Source: Frateuria flava (lineage in GTDB: Bacteria; Pseudomonadota; Gammaproteobacteria; Xanthomonadales; Rhodanobacteraceae). From it: DNA of 64,000 bases. Under the pieces are notes generated by a model that saw only the letters and a program-made list of their open reading frames with translations, had not been told where the DNA came from and made no database searches. A program made the translations under genes and the position numbers. Location: positions 62,001 through 126,000 of the forward strand of contig NZ_JAGJRS010000018.1 of the NCBI RefSeq assembly GCF_017837635.1. Direction: 5' to 3'. This document shows positions 16,164 through 25,692 of this stretch, piece after piece (position 1 is the first letter of the stretch; the number at the start of each line of letters is the position of its first letter).

Positions 16164-17159
16164 TCAGTGGCCCTGCATGAACCCGTTCACGGCCTTAAGG
16201 AAGGCGTCCGGTTCTTCCTGGTAGGTGAAATGCGCACTGCCGGGAAGCACCACCAGCGTCGCGTGCGGCAGGCGCGCGGCCAGCGCGCGTTGCGGCGCGA
16301 CGCCCACGGCCCCGTCATGCGCCCCGACGAGCACCAGCGTGGGCATGTCCAGGCGCTCGGGGTGGCGCACCGAATAGCAGATGAAATTCGATTCCGGCGC
16401 CATCAGTGCGGCGCCGATCTCGCCGGTGTTGCGCAGGCCGCTTTGCGCATCCAGGCGCTCCTGCTCCTGCTTGGCGGCCATCACGTGGAACTGCTGGCGA
16501 TCGTGGAACGCGTGCCCGTCCGGCAACGTGGCCATGCCGGCGCCGACGAAAGCCAACCGCGCGTGGGCCAGCGCGCAGGTATCGCCGGGGGCGACGGCGC
16601 GCAGCGCCTTGCCGGCGTCGGATCGCTCGGCCGCCGCGTACGCCGCGGGGAACTGGCTGGCCAGCGTATGCATCCAGCTCTCCAGCGCACCCGGCAGGTC
16701 CACCGCCGCGTCGATCAGGATCAGCCGCGCCACGCGCTGCGGGTGAGTCTGCGCGTACTCCACCGCAAGCGTGCCGCCGAAGCTGTGCCCGGCCAGCACC
16801 ATCCGCTTCACGCCCAGTTGCCGGCGCAGTCCTTCGATGTCTTCCACCTGGGTCGCCAGCGCATAGTCCCCGCGCCAGGGCCGCTCGCTCTCGCCGCTGC
16901 CGCGCTCGTCCAGGTAAACCATCGGATAGCGTGCCTCCAGCGCCTTGCCGGCCGTCATGCGGAAACTGTAGGAGTTGTAGCCCGGCCCGCCGTGCAGAAA
17001 CACCACCGGCACGTCGGTCGGCGCGATCGGGCGCGAGGTCCAGTAAGTAAGACGGACGCCGTTGATGATGGCGTCATGGCGGGTCTGGGCAGCCTGCGCG
17101 CGCGATACCGGAGCGACAAGCCCGGTAAGGAGCACGGCGGCGACAAGCAATAAGCGCAT
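16164..17159 (-). CDS. Secreted alpha/beta hydrolase, prolyl aminopeptidase-like
   Basis: A 331-residue hydrolase with a signal peptide (1-24, ending AQA-A). The oxyanion motif HGGPG is at 56-60, the nucleophile elbow GHSFGG has S126, an acid lies in LVGAHDG and the histidine in GSAHFTYQEE. The HGGPGYNS and DERGSGES blocks are those of proline iminopeptidase-like enzymes (MEROPS S33). Probably periplasmic; substrate not assigned. ATG 17159 is used because the signal peptide begins there. Divergent from ligD. Confidence 0.87.
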   Translation of the reverse strand: MRLLLVAAVLLTGLVAPVSRAQAAQTRHDAIINGVRLTYWTSRPIAPTDVPVVFLHGGPGYNSYSFRMTAGKALEARYPMVYLDERGSGESERPWRGDYALATQVEDIEGLRRQLGVKRMVLAGHSFGGTLAVEYAQTHPQRVARLILIDAAVDLPGALESWMHTLASQFPAAYAAAERSDAGKALRAVAPGDTCALAHARLAFVGAGMATLPDGHAFHDRQQFHVMAAKQEQERLDAQSGLRNTGEIGAALMAPESNFICYSVRHPERLDMPTLVLVGAHDGAVGVAPQRALAARLPHATLVVLPGSAHFTYQEEPDAFLKAVNGFMQGH

Positions 17160-17337
17160 GGCAGATCCAGTCGATGGAAGGGTGTACGCCACTTTGCCGT
17201 CCTGCGCCGTGGCCACTAAGTGCCGTTGGTCCTGCAACGCGGCCGGGCGGCCGCTTTGGCATGGGACTGTCGTTGCTCTACCGCGGATTCACGACGCGGG
17301 TGCCACAACGACCTGGGCATTGTCGCGGAGCCATCGC

Positions 17338-19902
17338 TTGAGCCTCAGGGAATACGACCGCAAGCGGCGTTTCGATACGACGCCGGAGCCGCGCTCCGAG
17401 GGTTCGGCGGCGCAGGGCGGGCGGCCGATCTTTGTCGTGCAGCTGCATCACGCCAGCCGGCGGCATTACGACTTCCGGCTGCAGGTCGGCGACACGCTCA
17501 AATCCTGGGCCTGCCCAAAGGGCCCAAGCTACGACCCGAACGTCAAGCGCCTGGCCGTGGAAGTCGAGGACCACCCGATCTCCTATGCCAAGTTCCAGGG
17601 CGACATCCCCGCGGGCGCCTACGGCGGCGGCCACGTCGACACGTTCGACAGCGGCGTGTGGTCGACGCCGTACGATCCGGAGGCGCAGCTGGAGAAAGGC
17701 CACCTGCGCTTCGAGTTGTTCGGCACCCGGCTCAAGGGCAGCTGGCACCTGGTGCGCAGCGGCAAGCCGGCGAAACAGCCGCAGTGGTTCCTCATGCACG
17801 ACAAGGACGCCTACGCCAGCGACGTCGAGGCCGACGACCTGCTCGATGCGCGCATGATCGCCAGCACCCGGGCTGCCGCCGGCCGCTCCGGCGGCGCGAA
17901 GGAAGTGGCCGCAACGCTGGACACCCGCAAGCGCAAGAAGGTGCCGGCCGCCGGCCACCACGCCAGCAAGGCAGGCAAGCTCGCCGCCGCCGCGGAAGGC
18001 GCAAAGAAGGCAAAGGCAAGCGCCGGGTTCTTCGCTCCCGAGCTGGCCATCCTGCGCGAGAACCCGCCAAGCGGCGAGCAGTGGCTGCACGAGGTGAAAT
18101 GGGATGGTTACCGCATCCTCGCGACCGTGGCCAAGGGCCAGGTCGAGCTGTGGTCGCGCAACGGTCTGTCATGGTCGGACAAGATCCCCGACATCCGCCA
18201 GGCGATCGAATCGCTGGGCCTGGATTCGGCCCGGTTCGACGGCGAACTGATCGCGCTGAGCGCGGATGGTCAGGCCGATTTCAACGCGCTGCAGAAGACG
18301 CTCTCCGGCGAGGCCAACGCGCCGCTCGCGTACATGCTGTTCGACCTGCCCTTCCTGGAGGGCTACGACCTCTCCCGCACGCCGCTGCACGCGCGCAAGG
18401 GGATCCTGGAGGCGTTGCTGCAGGATCCACCCGCGCACCTCTCCTACAGCACCCATGTGGTGGGCAACGGCGACCAGGTGTTCGCCATGGCCTGTGCGCA
18501 GAAGCTCGAGGGCATCCTCAGCAAGCGCGTCGATTCCGGCTATCGCGCCGGTCGCGGCGATGACTGGCTGAAGATCAAGCGCGTGGAGTCGGACGAATTC
18601 GCGGTGGTCGGCTACACCGCGCCCAAGGGCGGGCGCCAGGGCTTCGGTGCGCTGCTGCTGGCAAAGCCGGCTGCGGAAGGCGGCTGGCATTTCATGGGAC
18701 AGGTTGGCAGCGGCTTCAGCCACCGGCAGCTGCTGGACCTCAGCCGCACGCTCGCGACCGGCGGCGGCAGCAAGCCCACCGTACGCAATCCCGAAGACGC
18801 GCCGCGCGGGGTCAAGTGGATCGAGCCCACGGCCGTGGCCGAGGTGAATCACCGCGGCATCGGCAATCAGGGCCTGCTGCGCCAGCCGAGCCTGAAGACG
18901 ATGCGCGCGGACAAGACGCCCGCCGACCTGCGCGACAGCGACCGGGCGACGCCCACGCCTGCCGCCCCGCGGCCCAGGGCGTCCGCGCGCAAGAGATCCG
19001 CTGGCAAGGCCGCGGCACCCGCGGGCATCGCCATCACCCACCCCGAACGCGTGGTGTATCCGACCGACGGCTATACCAAGCAGGACGTGGTCAATTACTA
19101 CCGCACGGTGATGGACTGGTTCCTGCCCGGCGTGATCGACCGGCCCACCTCGATCATCCGGTATCCCGACGGCATCGATAAACCGTCGTTCTTCCAGAAG
19201 CACATCCCTTCCGGCGGCCTGAAATACGTCGGCAGCGTGAAGCTCAAGGAGGAAACCGGCGCCGCCGCCATCTATCTCTATCCGCAGTCCGCCGAGTCGG
19301 TGATGGAGCTGGTGCAGTACGGCACGCTGGAATTCCATCCCTGGGGCGCCAGGGTCGCTACGCCGGACCTCGCCGACCGCGTGGTGTTCGACCTGGACCC
19401 CGGTCCGGACGTGAGCTGGGAGCGCGTGGTCGCTGCCGCCCGGCTGGTGCGCAAGCTGCTGGCCGACCTGGAGCTTGAATCCTTCCTGCGCACCACCGGC
19501 GGCAAGGGACTGCACGTCGTGGTGCCGCTCAACCCGCCGTCGGACTGGGCCACGGTCAAGCAGTTCGCGCAGGGGTTCGCCGGCGCGCTGGCGGGGATCC
19601 ATCCGATGGAGTTCGTCGCGGTCAGCACCAAGTCGATCCGCCACCAGAAGATATTCGTCGACTACCTGCGCAACGGTCGCGGCGCCACCGCGGTGGCCTC
19701 CTACTCGCTGCGCGGGCGCCCAGGCGCACCGGTCGCGGTGCCGCTGCGCTGGGAAGAGCTGGGCAAGATCAAGAGCGGCGCACAGTTCGACATCCACTCC
19801 CTGCCCGCCCGGCTCAAGCGGCTGCGCAAGGATCCATGGGCCGGTATCGACGAGCTGGAGCAGAGCCTGGACAAGGTGATCGGGAAGCTGGGCGGGGCTT
19901 GA
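17338..19902 (+). CDS. ligD: ATP-dependent DNA ligase LigD (phosphoesterase-ligase-polymerase)
   Basis: A multifunctional non-homologous end-joining enzyme, 854 residues. Order is PE (about 1-165), a lysine/alanine-rich linker, LIG (about 230-540) and POL (about 555-854), as in Pseudomonas LigD. PE residues H37, H43, D45 and H79 are present. The ligase nucleotidyl lysine is K254 in KWDGYR. The polymerase metal pair is D685/D687 in VVFDLDPG. The start is TTG at 17338: GGAG lies 7 bases upstream and the N-terminus then reads MSLREYDRKRRFDTTPEP, the family consensus; the longer upstream frame is not LigD-like. No ku gene is in the window. Confidence 0.96.
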   Translation: MSLREYDRKRRFDTTPEPRSEGSAAQGGRPIFVVQLHHASRRHYDFRLQVGDTLKSWACPKGPSYDPNVKRLAVEVEDHPISYAKFQGDIPAGAYGGGHVDTFDSGVWSTPYDPEAQLEKGHLRFELFGTRLKGSWHLVRSGKPAKQPQWFLMHDKDAYASDVEADDLLDARMIASTRAAAGRSGGAKEVAATLDTRKRKKVPAAGHHASKAGKLAAAAEGAKKAKASAGFFAPELAILRENPPSGEQWLHEVKWDGYRILATVAKGQVELWSRNGLSWSDKIPDIRQAIESLGLDSARFDGELIALSADGQADFNALQKTLSGEANAPLAYMLFDLPFLEGYDLSRTPLHARKGILEALLQDPPAHLSYSTHVVGNGDQVFAMACAQKLEGILSKRVDSGYRAGRGDDWLKIKRVESDEFAVVGYTAPKGGRQGFGALLLAKPAAEGGWHFMGQVGSGFSHRQLLDLSRTLATGGGSKPTVRNPEDAPRGVKWIEPTAVAEVNHRGIGNQGLLRQPSLKTMRADKTPADLRDSDRATPTPAAPRPRASARKRSAGKAAAPAGIAITHPERVVYPTDGYTKQDVVNYYRTVMDWFLPGVIDRPTSIIRYPDGIDKPSFFQKHIPSGGLKYVGSVKLKEETGAAAIYLYPQSAESVMELVQYGTLEFHPWGARVATPDLADRVVFDLDPGPDVSWERVVAAARLVRKLLADLELESFLRTTGGKGLHVVVPLNPPSDWATVKQFAQGFAGALAGIHPMEFVAVSTKSIRHQKIFVDYLRNGRGATAVASYSLRGRPGAPVAVPLRWEELGKIKSGAQFDIHSLPARLKRLRKDPWAGIDELEQSLDKVIGKLGGA

Positions 19903-21705: not shown

Positions 21706-23484
21706 TCAGGCCTGGACCAGGGCGTTGGCGACTTCCAGATCGCCCATGACGCAGTTGCGGCCCGCACGCTTGGCGCGATAGAGCGCCGCGTCGGCTTCCC
21801 TGCAAAGCCGCTGTACGCCGTAGCCGGACGTGGCGGTAGACGCCAGCCCGACGCTGGCCGATATCGTAATCTCGAACCCATCCTTGCTGACGGGCGACTC
21901 GAGAATCGCCGCACGGATGCGATTGGCGATGTCCATGCCCTGCTCGCGCGAACACTCGTACAGCAGGATGCCGAACTCCTCGCCACCCAACCGGCCGAAC
22001 AGGTCAACGGGACGCAACTGCTGCTGGCAGGCGGCGACGGCGCGCTTGAGCACCGTGTCCCCCGTGGCATGGCCATGGGTGTCGTTGACGAGCTTGAAGT
22101 GATCCAGATCCAGCACGATCAGGCAGGCATGGCCAACTTTCTTGTTCAGTAGCTGCAGAGCGCGCTCCGTCCTGCAGATGAAGTGCTGGTGGTTGAGGAT
22201 GCCGGTGAGGCCATCCAGTCGAGAGAGCCGCATGAAGCGCAGCTGTGAGCGCTTGAGCCGGAACAGCCAGAAGACGATCGACGCCAGCACCAGAAGGAGC
22301 AGGACATTGTAGAGGCGGCTGGTCTCGACGGCTTTGGTGTCCAGAGCCTGCTGCAAGCGGAGAATCTTGTTCTGCTTACTTAGTCGCTCTGTCTCCAGTT
22401 TCTGCGCCAACATGTGTTGCCGGGCTACTTCGTAGGCCAGCGTCCGCGCACTGATGTCATCGAGATAGCCCCTGTCCTGGACGACGTAGTGTTCGTAAAA
22501 GGACAACGCCGCCGCGGCGTTGCCCAGCCTCTTCTCGGTTCGATAGAGCACCTTGTAGGCTTCGGCCAGCGCCTGGTCGATGCTTCCGGGCTTCGCCATG
22601 GCGACCGCGACGAGGGCTGCGGCTCTAGCGTCTTTGTCACGGCCGAGGGCGGCCAGTGCTTGCGCGCGTTGCACCTTGGCGGACAGTATGTGCGGATAGT
22701 ATGCGCTGGTACGAATACTGGCAGAGAGCCGATCAAGCAGCGCGAGGGCCATGGATGGCTTTCCCTCTTCGATATAGAGGTTGACCAAGACCAGTTGCAT
22801 GCTGTTGCTAAAGGCCGGCTGGTCAGTGGCGTCGCACTTTTCGATGGCACGCTGAAGTTCCTGACTGGTCGAGGTCAGCCGCTTCCCGTTGTATAGCGCA
22901 GCGACCTCCCTCGAGAGCGGTCGGCACAGGTTTTCACCCGGAGGAACGGCCTGTTCGGCCATGTGCGCGTACTGGATTGCCAGGTCGATCTGGCCTGCCA
23001 GACTGAGCATCTGCGACAGATCCGACTGTAGCAAGAATCGGGCCTGTGGATCTTTGACCTGGTCCAAGCCCGCGGCCAGGCGGTTGGCCAAGGTGAATGC
23101 GTCTTCGTAGCGCCGGTTGAGCGCCAGATTGTTGAGAAGCAGCCCCGATGCCTTCGCGGCCAGCACGTCGTTGCCGGAACGGTCGATGATCTCGCGCAAC
23201 TGCGTTTCGGAGGCAGTGTAGTCGCCTTCGAACATGGCCTCCCAGGCATCGAGATACCGCAGATGCCATTGTTGAGCCGGAGTGAGGTTCGGTGCCTCGC
23301 GATGAATCCGGTCCAGCATCACGACAAATCGCGGATGGTCCCGGGTACGCAGAGCCTCGGCCTGTTCGAGAAACACGCCGGGATTCATGGCTGGCGAGTC
23401 GGCCTGGCTGACCTGCGCAAGCAGGCACCAGGCCAGGATTGCCCCCGCGAGCCAGACACGGCCACGGCTTGATGGCCGGGACAT
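21706..23484 (-). CDS. Membrane-anchored TPR-type diguanylate cyclase
   Basis: A 592-residue protein. A signal peptide (1-28) is followed by a large periplasmic region of TPR-like helices (about 35-355), a coiled coil (360-390), one transmembrane helix (about 397-413) and a GGDEF domain. The active site GGEEF is at 500-504 and the inhibitory I-site RxxD at 491-494, so it should make cyclic di-GMP with product inhibition. It is the third gene of the borosin-like locus, 19 bp after the precursor gene, so it is probably co-transcribed. The periplasmic TPR region may sense a peptide or protein signal; that is inference. Confidence 0.9.
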   Translation of the reverse strand: MSRPSSRGRVWLAGAILAWCLLAQVSQADSPAMNPGVFLEQAEALRTRDHPRFVVMLDRIHREAPNLTPAQQWHLRYLDAWEAMFEGDYTASETQLREIIDRSGNDVLAAKASGLLLNNLALNRRYEDAFTLANRLAAGLDQVKDPQARFLLQSDLSQMLSLAGQIDLAIQYAHMAEQAVPPGENLCRPLSREVAALYNGKRLTSTSQELQRAIEKCDATDQPAFSNSMQLVLVNLYIEEGKPSMALALLDRLSASIRTSAYYPHILSAKVQRAQALAALGRDKDARAAALVAVAMAKPGSIDQALAEAYKVLYRTEKRLGNAAAALSFYEHYVVQDRGYLDDISARTLAYEVARQHMLAQKLETERLSKQNKILRLQQALDTKAVETSRLYNVLLLLVLASIVFWLFRLKRSQLRFMRLSRLDGLTGILNHQHFICRTERALQLLNKKVGHACLIVLDLDHFKLVNDTHGHATGDTVLKRAVAACQQQLRPVDLFGRLGGEEFGILLYECSREQGMDIANRIRAAILESPVSKDGFEITISASVGLASTATSGYGVQRLCREADAALYRAKRAGRNCVMGDLEVANALVQA

Positions 23485-23503: not shown

Positions 23504-23776
23504 TTACGACTTACTGCCAAGAGGCGGGACGTCGAGCGGCTCCTCCTCCATCGGTTCGTCATCTTCGCGGGCAGGCATCTGATTGACCTGCGGCACCTGG
23601 TTGGGCAGTTGCCCGAATTCCACCGACAGTACCGAGCTGTCGCCCGATGCGGCCGCCGCAACCAGCGCCGCGGATGCCTGTGCCCCGTCGAGCCGCTGCG
23701 CCAGCTCTTCTCCCGGCGCGTGCCGCAGAGAGGCGTCGCGGCCAATCGCTTCCAATAGCTCGATAGTGTCGGTCAT
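23504..23776 (-). CDS. Likely split-borosin precursor peptide (SonA-like)
   Basis: A 90-residue peptide. The N-terminal half (about 1-50, TIELLEAIGRDASLRHAPGE and a second helix ending VAAAASGDSSVL) is an all-helical leader resembling the borosin-binding domain of SonA. The tail (51-90) is unstructured and rich in Q, N, V, P, then acidic, with polar/valine stretches GQLPNQVPQVNQMPA as a candidate core. AGGGGGA lies 7 bases before the ATG. It lies between the methyltransferase gene (90 bp upstream) and a diguanylate cyclase gene (19 bp downstream). The family call rests on leader shape and the neighbouring enzyme, not on a search. Confidence 0.7.
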   Translation of the reverse strand: MTDTIELLEAIGRDASLRHAPGEELAQRLDGAQASAALVAAAASGDSSVLSVEFGQLPNQVPQVNQMPAREDDEPMEEEPLDVPPLGSKS

Positions 23777-23866
23777 TTGTGATTCCCCCTGCGTTTGACG
23801 GTAACTAAAGCCTTCGTCGTGCGTATCGCTCAGCGAACCGCCCCCTGCTGCATTCGCACCCGACCA

Positions 23867-24697
23867 TTATGCGATTTTTTCGACTCGCTCCAATGCATCC
23901 AGTTTTTCCAGATACGCCTGCATGGCCACGTTGGGCTTGAGCGGCATGGCAGGGGGAAGCACCACCGTTTCCTCGGCAGTCAGCGGCGACAGGGCCAGGT
24001 CGCGTAAGGCCACACGCCTGGCACGGGGCCTCTCGATCGGAAGCGTGGCCGCCCGGTAGATAATTACTTCATGTTCGGGCGGATAATCCTTAACCAGCAG
24101 ATCGACCAGCAACTGGCGATAGGCCGGCCCGGTCGCGAAGCGACCGAGCGATCGATCACCGACCAACGCGACCTGCCAAAGGACGAGGTAACCGGTCGGA
24201 TCGATCCGCCGCTCGTAGAACAGCAACTGGCTTGCCTCAAAATGCTGGCAGCCGAAACGGCCCGGATCGATGCCCAGGTCCGCATAAAGGCAGTCTTCGG
24301 CAGAGACGCCCGGCTCCATGTGAGCTTCGAATCCCTCCGCACGCGCCACCTCGATGACTTTGTGCGGCGACCAGGCAAAAATACCCGGGTGTCCGTAGAA
24401 CACTCCGCACACGCGCTTGCCTGCGCGCACTTCGACCATCATCAACTCGACCCACTCGCGATAGGTCTTAAGGCGCGACTTGCCCTCGCGGTAATACGGC
24501 TGGAGGCTGCGCACATCAGGGTGCATGCGCTCCAGCCACTTCTCGACGATGCCGTCGGAAAGTCCGGCGAACACCACGTCAGCCTGCTCGATGTGGCTAC
24601 GCGCCAGCGGCGTCAGGTGGGAACCGAGGGTCATGCCCATGCCGACGCAGGCGAGGCTGCCGCGTGTCCTGTGCGCTATCGCAGGGGAAGTGTCCAT
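23867..24697 (-). CDS. SonM-like peptide backbone alpha-N-methyltransferase (borosin, tetrapyrrole-methylase fold)
   Basis: A 276-residue SAM-dependent methyltransferase with the tetrapyrrole methylase fold: GSLACVGMGMTLGSHLTPL at the N-terminus, ADVVFAGLSDG, then FYGHPGIFAWSPH and AHMEPGVSAEDCLYADLGIDP. This follows SonM, the split borosin enzyme of Shewanella, rather than cobalamin or uroporphyrinogen methylases. Y68/Y69, R75, Y79 and Y101 (YGHPG) correspond to the catalytic Tyr-Arg-Tyr-Tyr set of OphMA. No precursor tail is fused to it, so it should act in trans on the peptide encoded next (23504-23776). ATG 24697 is chosen; neither it nor the upstream TTG has a clear ribosome site. Confidence 0.85.
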   Translation of the reverse strand: MDTSPAIAHRTRGSLACVGMGMTLGSHLTPLARSHIEQADVVFAGLSDGIVEKWLERMHPDVRSLQPYYREGKSRLKTYREWVELMMVEVRAGKRVCGVFYGHPGIFAWSPHKVIEVARAEGFEAHMEPGVSAEDCLYADLGIDPGRFGCQHFEASQLLFYERRIDPTGYLVLWQVALVGDRSLGRFATGPAYRQLLVDLLVKDYPPEHEVIIYRAATLPIERPRARRVALRDLALSPLTAEETVVLPPAMPLKPNVAMQAYLEKLDALERVEKIA

Positions 24698-24798: not shown

Positions 24799-25623
24799 TC
24801 AGTCGAGCGGCACCTTGTAGTTGCCGTGATTATCGATCGGGCAGGCGCATTCGTTGCCGACCTGTTTCGGAGCGAAGTGATACCCCGGAATGCGGCTGGT
24901 GAGATACGCAGCCGTGGCCTTGTAGGCGTTCAAGTTGTAAGGCGGCTTCGCCGAACCGAAGGTATTGCCGCCGGGGGTGGTCAGCACCTGCCACAGCGTC
25001 GGCTGCGCGGCAGATGGCGTGATGTAGAAGCTCGGCACGACGGTGTCATTGAAGTCGGCGTACTTGTCCACGCCGACCAGGTTCCAGGCATCCTGCGAGG
25101 CGTTCTTCCAGAAGCCCGGCGAGCACCATGCGCCCGGCGTCTTCATCGGCTGGCAGCCATGGCTGACGACCAGTTGGACGTTTCCGTTCCTGACATCACC
25201 CTCGTAGGTGGCCGTGACCGGCAGGCCAACGAGTTTGTTGTAGCGGTAGTACTTGCTGGCGTACTTGAAGGTGCCGCCCACTTTGATCATCTGCACGGTG
25301 CGATCGGGCAGGGTCAACGTCGCGGACACCGCGCCATTGGCGGTGAGCACCCAGACCAGGTAACCCTGCCCCGACTGGTAGGGCTGACCCGTTCCGTTCC
25401 AGTTGGCGAACAGGCCGGTGCCGCCGTCGTCGGCATCGTTCTGACCGGTCAGGCCACATCGCTCGTCCTGCAGGTTGTGCGTGTTGCCGTCGAAGCTGAA
25501 GCCCTGGCCGGTGTAGGTCACGGCCGTCGCAGCCCATGCGGGCGCGGCCCCAACCAGGGTCAGCAGGAGAGCCAGCAGCAGCATGGCGAACAGGCGCCTG
25601 GACTTCATGAGCAGGGTCTTCAT
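24799..25623 (-). CDS. Secreted hypothetical protein with CSPGFWKN motif
   Basis: A 274-residue exported protein with a long signal peptide (1-32, ending PAWA-A). The N-terminal half (TAVTYTGQGFSFDGNTHNLQ...) looks like an all-beta domain. Residues near 165-175 carry WCSPGFWKNAS, a motif seen in many bacterial and archaeal extracellular proteins, often with further cysteines; here C-pairs occur at HGC and ECACP. ATG 25623 is used; GGGAG lies 9 bases upstream. A 16-bp palindrome in the promoter region is shared with a divergent LuxR-type regulator gene. Function unknown; extracellular matrix or adhesion is a guess. Confidence 0.6.
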   Translation of the reverse strand: MKTLLMKSRRLFAMLLLALLLTLVGAAPAWAATAVTYTGQGFSFDGNTHNLQDERCGLTGQNDADDGGTGLFANWNGTGQPYQSGQGYLVWVLTANGAVSATLTLPDRTVQMIKVGGTFKYASKYYRYNKLVGLPVTATYEGDVRNGNVQLVVSHGCQPMKTPGAWCSPGFWKNASQDAWNLVGVDKYADFNDTVVPSFYITPSAAQPTLWQVLTTPGGNTFGSAKPPYNLNAYKATAAYLTSRIPGYHFAPKQVGNECACPIDNHGNYKVPLD

Positions 25624-25692
25624 GAGCGTGTACTCCCGGGGAACCGCCGCAGCGGGGGAGCGCAGCATGCGGCGCGCGCCAGAACGGATGAA

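Follow-up and report, generated by a model that had tools for sequence, protein, structure and literature searches.

A 64,000-nucleotide stretch of the Frateuria flava genome, referred to here as the window, carries on its minus strand a split borosin locus whose three genes probably form a signalling cassette, in which a methylated peptide would be the signal and a membrane diguanylate cyclase its cognate c-di-GMP receptor. The split-borosin identity of the locus, judged by homology, is nearly certain. The receptor role of the cyclase is the main functional claim of the signalling model and is inferred; we regard it as likely but unproven, and we read the locus as peptide signal plus receptor because of an observed gene association, a gene fusion, the replacement in Shewanella of core and sensor together, and the covariation of core with sensor.

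Organization of the locus

The genes for methyltransferase, peptide and cyclase follow one another in that order on the minus strand, with gaps of 90 bp and then 19 bp, and comprise the following features.

23867..24697, minus strand: SonM-type peptide backbone alpha-N-methyltransferase, 276 aa, TP_methylase fold, predicted catalytic residues Y69, R75, Y79 and Y101 (Pfam, SonM and OphMA matches, residue mapping)
23504..23776, minus strand: borosin precursor peptide, 90 aa (family alignments, profile match to SonA at E 8e-13, dN/dS 0.12-0.28)
23615..23776, minus strand: borosin-binding-domain (BBD) leader of the peptide, residues 1-54, five predicted helices (AF2 model, homology to the SonA BBD)
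23570..23614, minus strand: putative core, residues 55-69 (GQLPNQVPQVNQMPA), from column counts and register against SonA; methylation not shown
23507..23569, minus strand: acidic follower tail, residues 70-90, from the sequence; E71 invariant in 28 rows
21706..23484, minus strand: membrane diguanylate cyclase, 592 aa, with signal peptide, periplasmic TPR sensor, TM helix and GGDEF domain
22525..23382, minus strand: periplasmic TPR sensor domain of the cyclase, residues 35-320; C187 and C217 invariant in 36 aligned cyclases
22249..22323, minus strand: transmembrane helix of the cyclase, residues 388-412 (hydropathy)
21754..22218, minus strand: GGDEF domain of the cyclase, residues 423-577; catalytic GGEEF and I-site intact

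A preliminary description had located the methyltransferase at 23867-24697 and the peptide at 23504-23776, both correctly and on the minus strand. Its span left out the third gene of the operon at 21706-23484, and its borosin reading, although supported, was incomplete in missing this partner, a conserved diguanylate cyclase that offers the best clue to what the locus does. Scans for an operon promoter and terminator gave no signal above chance.

Just upstream of the cassette, at 24799-25668 on the minus strand, lies a gene for a secreted protein of unknown family that is not a cassette member; in two further genomes of the genus a protein about 90% identical adjoins the cassette, and none was found in the other relatives checked. 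The window also encodes, at 17062-19902 on the plus strand, a multidomain DNA ligase D (phosphoesterase, ligase, primase-polymerase) of the non-homologous end-joining type.

The methyltransferase

The enzyme matches the Pfam family TP_methylase (E 2e-21), and its closest relatives of solved structure are SonM (7LTC; E 3e-72) and, next, the OphMA-type enzymes (about 1e-45). Although the TP_methylase fold is common to this enzyme and to cobalamin and siroheme methylases, the idea that it is one of the latter beside an incidental small ORF can be set aside, since the best cobalamin enzyme scores only 0.001 against 3e-72 for SonM, the NCBIfam cobalamin models fall far below cut-off, and the small ORF is conserved and under selection. 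A grouping with cobalamin-type methylases would have refuted the preliminary description; the enzyme groups with SonM and OphMA. Mutants of SonM residues Y58, R67, Y71 and Y93 have lowered activity (PMC8429565), and the corresponding residues, Y69, R75, Y79 and Y101, are all four present in the window methyltransferase. These are the catalytic residues that had been proposed for it; Y68, named with them, corresponds to SonM F57.

Of 233 Rhodanobacteraceae genomes, 162 have a strong homologue of the methyltransferase; a sample of about 367 other genomes from the class yielded 7. Within its family, then, the locus is nothing unusual, and outside it the distribution is patchy. The earlier claim that such loci are rare is thus wrong for Rhodanobacteraceae.

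The precursor peptide

The peptide aligns readily with counterparts that occupy its position in 27 other loci (28 sequences with the window's own), and both its leader and its tail are under purifying selection (dN/dS 0.12-0.28). Compared over its whole length with two close relatives it gives a dN/dS of 0.18-0.27, and the tail stays low too. Because of these relatives and this selection, we do not take the ORF for a chance one.

A profile of the wider peptide family reaches SonA itself (E 8e-13), a match that leans on one close Shewanella relative within the profile. With the Shewanella, Undibacterium and Sapientia rows removed, SonA is found at E 0.009, ahead of all of about 4,900 shuffled SonA decoys. 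A profile built from Rhodanobacteraceae alone produced no match reaching SonA, and the link between peptide and SonA therefore depends on intermediate sequences; a search with the single peptide sequence against solved structures, Pfam and NCBIfam gave no match. In the AlphaFold2 model (mean pLDDT 74) five helices occupy residues 3-54 and coil lies beyond, which agrees with the helical leader and disordered tail anticipated in the preliminary description. The nine best Foldseek matches of this model are all SonA chains, each of them weak (E > 1), and the SonA leader is a five-helix bundle of residues 1-53 (PMC8429565). Judged by profile and model together, the peptide leader is homologous to the SonA BBD, with five predicted helices.

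We took the register of the core from the alignment to SonA and from PMC8429565. In that alignment, which has no net gaps, the methylated SonA positions 63 and 65 (L63/I65) fall on Q63 and N65, near which stand the hydrophobic residues V64 and M67; the modified residues, if any, are unidentified. The conserved motif of the core is P62-Q63-x-x-Q66-x-P68, with P62 and P68 each kept in 26 of the 28 sequences, Q63 in 25 and Q66 in 22. In the window the core is polar (PQVNQMP) and runs into an acidic tail of about 20 residues. Characterised borosin cores are mostly hydrophobic, a trait of the examples that forms no part of the published definition of a split borosin.

The precursor is encoded apart from the methyltransferase, 90 bp downstream of it, and a separate precursor is kept in 71 of the 74 named loci. 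The homology of enzyme and peptide bears out the initial identification of a SonM-like alpha-N-methyltransferase with a separate small precursor as a split borosin locus. The peptide also proves to have relatives beside such enzymes, whose absence would have counted against the preliminary description: a BBD peptide lies near the methyltransferase in those 71 loci, and the profile finds SonA. Some loci (L094, L099, L102, L103, L113) have tandem BBD precursors, two or three in number, and in some peptides core-like stretches are repeated, such as CCMMLPATVCCMMLPG in L100.

The diguanylate cyclase partner

The third gene matches the Pfam families GGDEF (4e-38) and TPR_MalT (3e-4), the latter below that family's cut-off. 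The catalytic GGEEF lies at residue 500 and the RxxD I-site (RPVD) at 491, the active-site residues are invariant in 36 aligned cyclases, and the AF2 model of the protein has a mean pLDDT of 89. The sensor has a profile similarity to RapF (2e-9) that is generic for TPR. When the complete cyclase model was used for a structure search, matches to GGDEF and to generic TPR proteins dominated the results, and we assign no specific fold to the sensor.

According to the genome records, the cyclase is near the methyltransferase and on the same strand in 73 of the 74 named loci. The exception (L089) has two BBD peptides and no cyclase; one locus (L074) is cut by a contig end, and in another (L114) a GGDEF part is present but no sensor was matched. 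Of the 233 genomes, 157 have both methyltransferase and cyclase sensor, 5 only the methyltransferase, 1 only the cyclase and 70 neither, and all five methyltransferase-only genomes belong to the genus with a fused protein, whose sensor is too divergent for the threshold. In this one related genus TPR sensor, TM helix, GGDEF domain and methyltransferase form a single polypeptide, with the methyltransferase C-terminal and the BBD peptide encoded upstream. The loci of this genus (g5, of the same family; L122-L126, L131-L135) have, beside the fused cyclase-methyltransferase, a separate upstream BBD peptide whose tail ends like FATNHSVVAYTE.

The partnership is also found where the genes have been reordered, as in Undibacterium and Sapientia (Oxalobacteraceae), in which the order is peptide, cyclase, methyltransferase; in Shewanella, too, the cyclase gene comes directly after SonM-SonA. 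Because the more distant homologues of the class (31-45% identical to SonM) are mostly without a cyclase, the cyclase link belongs, on the evidence of the sequence tree, to the SonM-like clade and not to all borosins. Besides methyltransferase, peptide and cyclase, no other gene family is conserved across the 74 loci, and no conserved exporter, protease, tailoring or immunity gene was found near the cassette in them. In four distant loci (L099, L102, L106, L109), and not in the window, a GNAT-like acetyltransferase lies near the methyltransferase, which could be a tailoring enzyme or a chance neighbour.

The peptide and the cyclase also occur as a pair without the enzyme. All 24 of the BBD peptides in ten genomes sit immediately upstream of a TPR cyclase, and at several of these loci there is no methyltransferase within several kilobases and no substitute modifying enzyme was seen. 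Every genome with such a locus carries a methyltransferase elsewhere, and the peptides in question (L202-L204, L206, L208-L210) may be modified in trans or unmodified. TPR cyclases without a BBD peptide occur as well. The window genome itself has, at G000:C15:52949-53050 (L047, L212), the remnant of a BBD leader with a scrambled tail and no cyclase. It lies between hemerythrin-like and Nudix-like genes, where other Frateuria genomes keep a peptide-cyclase pair, and looks like a decayed second cassette.

Exchange and covariation of core and sensor

Two Shewanella loci, G619 and G649, have methyltransferases that are 99% identical and BBDs that are 96% identical, and differ in their cores (QAFLLVNHGNN against QSYLIISCGIGD). 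Core and sensor have diverged to about 35% identity, the sensor to 28-48% per 50-column window of the alignment, and the signalling helix, TM helix and GGDEF domain are back at 92-100%. Of the breakpoints, one lies at the BBD/core junction and the other ahead of the signalling helix; in the DNA, identity falls from 97% at the BBD/core junction and recovers about 1 kb on. A second pair, G606 and G633, has the same pattern of core-sensor exchange. The methyltransferases of G619 and G606 are less similar (90%), yet the two share core type and sensor. Upstream, G649 has kept one more precursor, whose core resembles the G619 core, as expected if one allele had replaced another.

Over 29 Shewanella loci, core covaries with sensor when the methyltransferase is controlled for (r 0.74, p 0.0005) and when the BBD is (r 0.51, p 0.0005). 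Over 58 loci of Rhodanobacteraceae and related bacteria, the window included, the covariation of core and sensor given methyltransferase, BBD and GGDEF is r 0.33 (p 0.001), and that of core and GGDEF given methyltransferase and sensor is r 0.04 (p 0.33). One caveat applies to all of these values: the codons of core and sensor adjoin, and a single recombination tract could move both with no physical interaction needed.

A signalling model and its alternatives

By homology to SonM-SonA, the enzyme would dock the helical BBD of the precursor and N-methylate backbone amides of the adjoining core. The later steps are inferred no less than this methylation: the core would be cleaved from its leader and reach the periplasm by way of unknown proteins encoded elsewhere, there it would bind the TPR domain that the cyclase, product of the next gene, exposes in the periplasm, and binding would set the activity of the cytoplasmic GGDEF domain and hence the level of c-di-GMP. 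Several observations count against this model. Neither an exporter nor a protease is conserved in the cassette, the putative core is polar, unlike the mostly hydrophobic cores that have been characterised, not every borosin needs a cyclase, and there are TPR cyclases that have no BBD peptide.

Of the alternatives, the one that survives best is that the locus makes an ordinary split-borosin natural product, for example an extracellular metabolite acting on neighbours or metals, and that the cyclase regulates production or biofilm by feedback or self-sensing and is not the main target. It has precedent in the fungal borosins, which are secreted metabolites (PMC8429565), and the cassette does hold a RiPP-pathway enzyme with its precursor; moreover, a dedicated receptor sensing its own product would yield the same gene association and covariation. 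We nevertheless consider it unlikely, though not negligible, as the cassette has no conserved companion gene for immunity, export or tailoring, the BBD peptide is paired with the cyclase alone in several loci, and the unit exchanged is exactly core plus sensor.

It is also possible that no peptide is exported and that the complex of methyltransferase and precursor is an intracellular subunit tuning the GGDEF domain. The core, however, tracks the periplasmic sensor and not the GGDEF domain once the sensor is accounted for, and the stretch exchanged between G619 and G649 ends before the TM helix. We give this arrangement little credence, while acknowledging that in one genus a fusion places the methyltransferase immediately behind GGDEF, on the cytoplasmic side, and that a conserved exporter is lacking.

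Finally, the covariation might reflect mere physical linkage at a recombination hotspot, with the cyclase an operon passenger. This appears very doubtful: the adjoining codons would indeed let one tract move core and sensor together, but the association survives reordering in Undibacterium and Sapientia, fusion, and the absence of a methyltransferase beside peptide-cyclase pairs, co-occurrence is near-perfect, and covariation remains after control for the BBD, which abuts the core as well.

Relation to known systems

Polymorphic peptide-receptor loci such as agr and comQXPA, and the RRNPP receptors (Rap) with their TPR domains, are known mainly from Gram-positive bacteria and have transcription or phosphorylation as their output. 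In agr and comQXPA ligand and sensor are exchanged as a unit between otherwise identical loci, as they are in the Shewanella loci, and RRNPP proteins (Rap) offer a TPR peptide receptor like the proposed sensor, the profile match to RapF being generic. The cassette differs from all of these in its predicted backbone-methylated peptide, its proposed c-di-GMP output and its Gram-negative host. At most it may work like them, by analogy; it is not a member of either group.

Its nearest counterpart is the type IV split borosin SonM-SonA of Shewanella oneidensis (PMC8429565; PDB 7LTC), which it resembles in its separate methyltransferase and BBD precursor, its catalytic residues, the predicted fold of the leader and the register of the core. 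In close relatives of SonM-SonA the same TPR-GGDEF gene comes next, as in the window, a neighbour that the text of the Shewanella study (PMC8429565) does not mention. The short core at the end of SonA carries methylated Leu and Ile, whereas the window core is polar with its acidic tail behind it. The fungal borosins of OphMA type have a homologous methyltransferase domain, with enzyme and core in one protein there and separate in the window.

Among the borosin classes of Xu et al. 2024 (PMC11395268), the window locus fits class 3, with BBD and core in one protein and the methyltransferase separate. The Figure 1 legend of that paper lists GGDEF as a domain in borosin architecture, from which it appears that the association of borosin and GGDEF genes, and perhaps the fusion, had already been seen and is not entirely new. 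The portion of its text at hand gives no function for GGDEF and describes no exchange of core and sensor, which our analysis does find. Apart from one figure legend naming GGDEF, a search of literature text did not find borosin and diguanylate cyclase together. No stated function for bacterial split borosins was found either, in a literature search of incomplete coverage, which limits any claim to novelty.

We lean somewhat, and no more than that, towards a general form of the model, in which bacterial split borosins belonging to the SonM clade act as peptide signals, their backbone-methylated cores being read by cognate periplasmic TPR diguanylate cyclases in strain-specific alleles, linking a RiPP to c-di-GMP control in Gram-negative bacteria. 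Provided that the neighbouring cyclase has the core as its ligand, the function of split borosins becomes directly testable. Should this hold true, Gram-negative bacteria would have in this cassette a signalling route from peptide to c-di-GMP, and its natural alleles would lend themselves to clean swap experiments.
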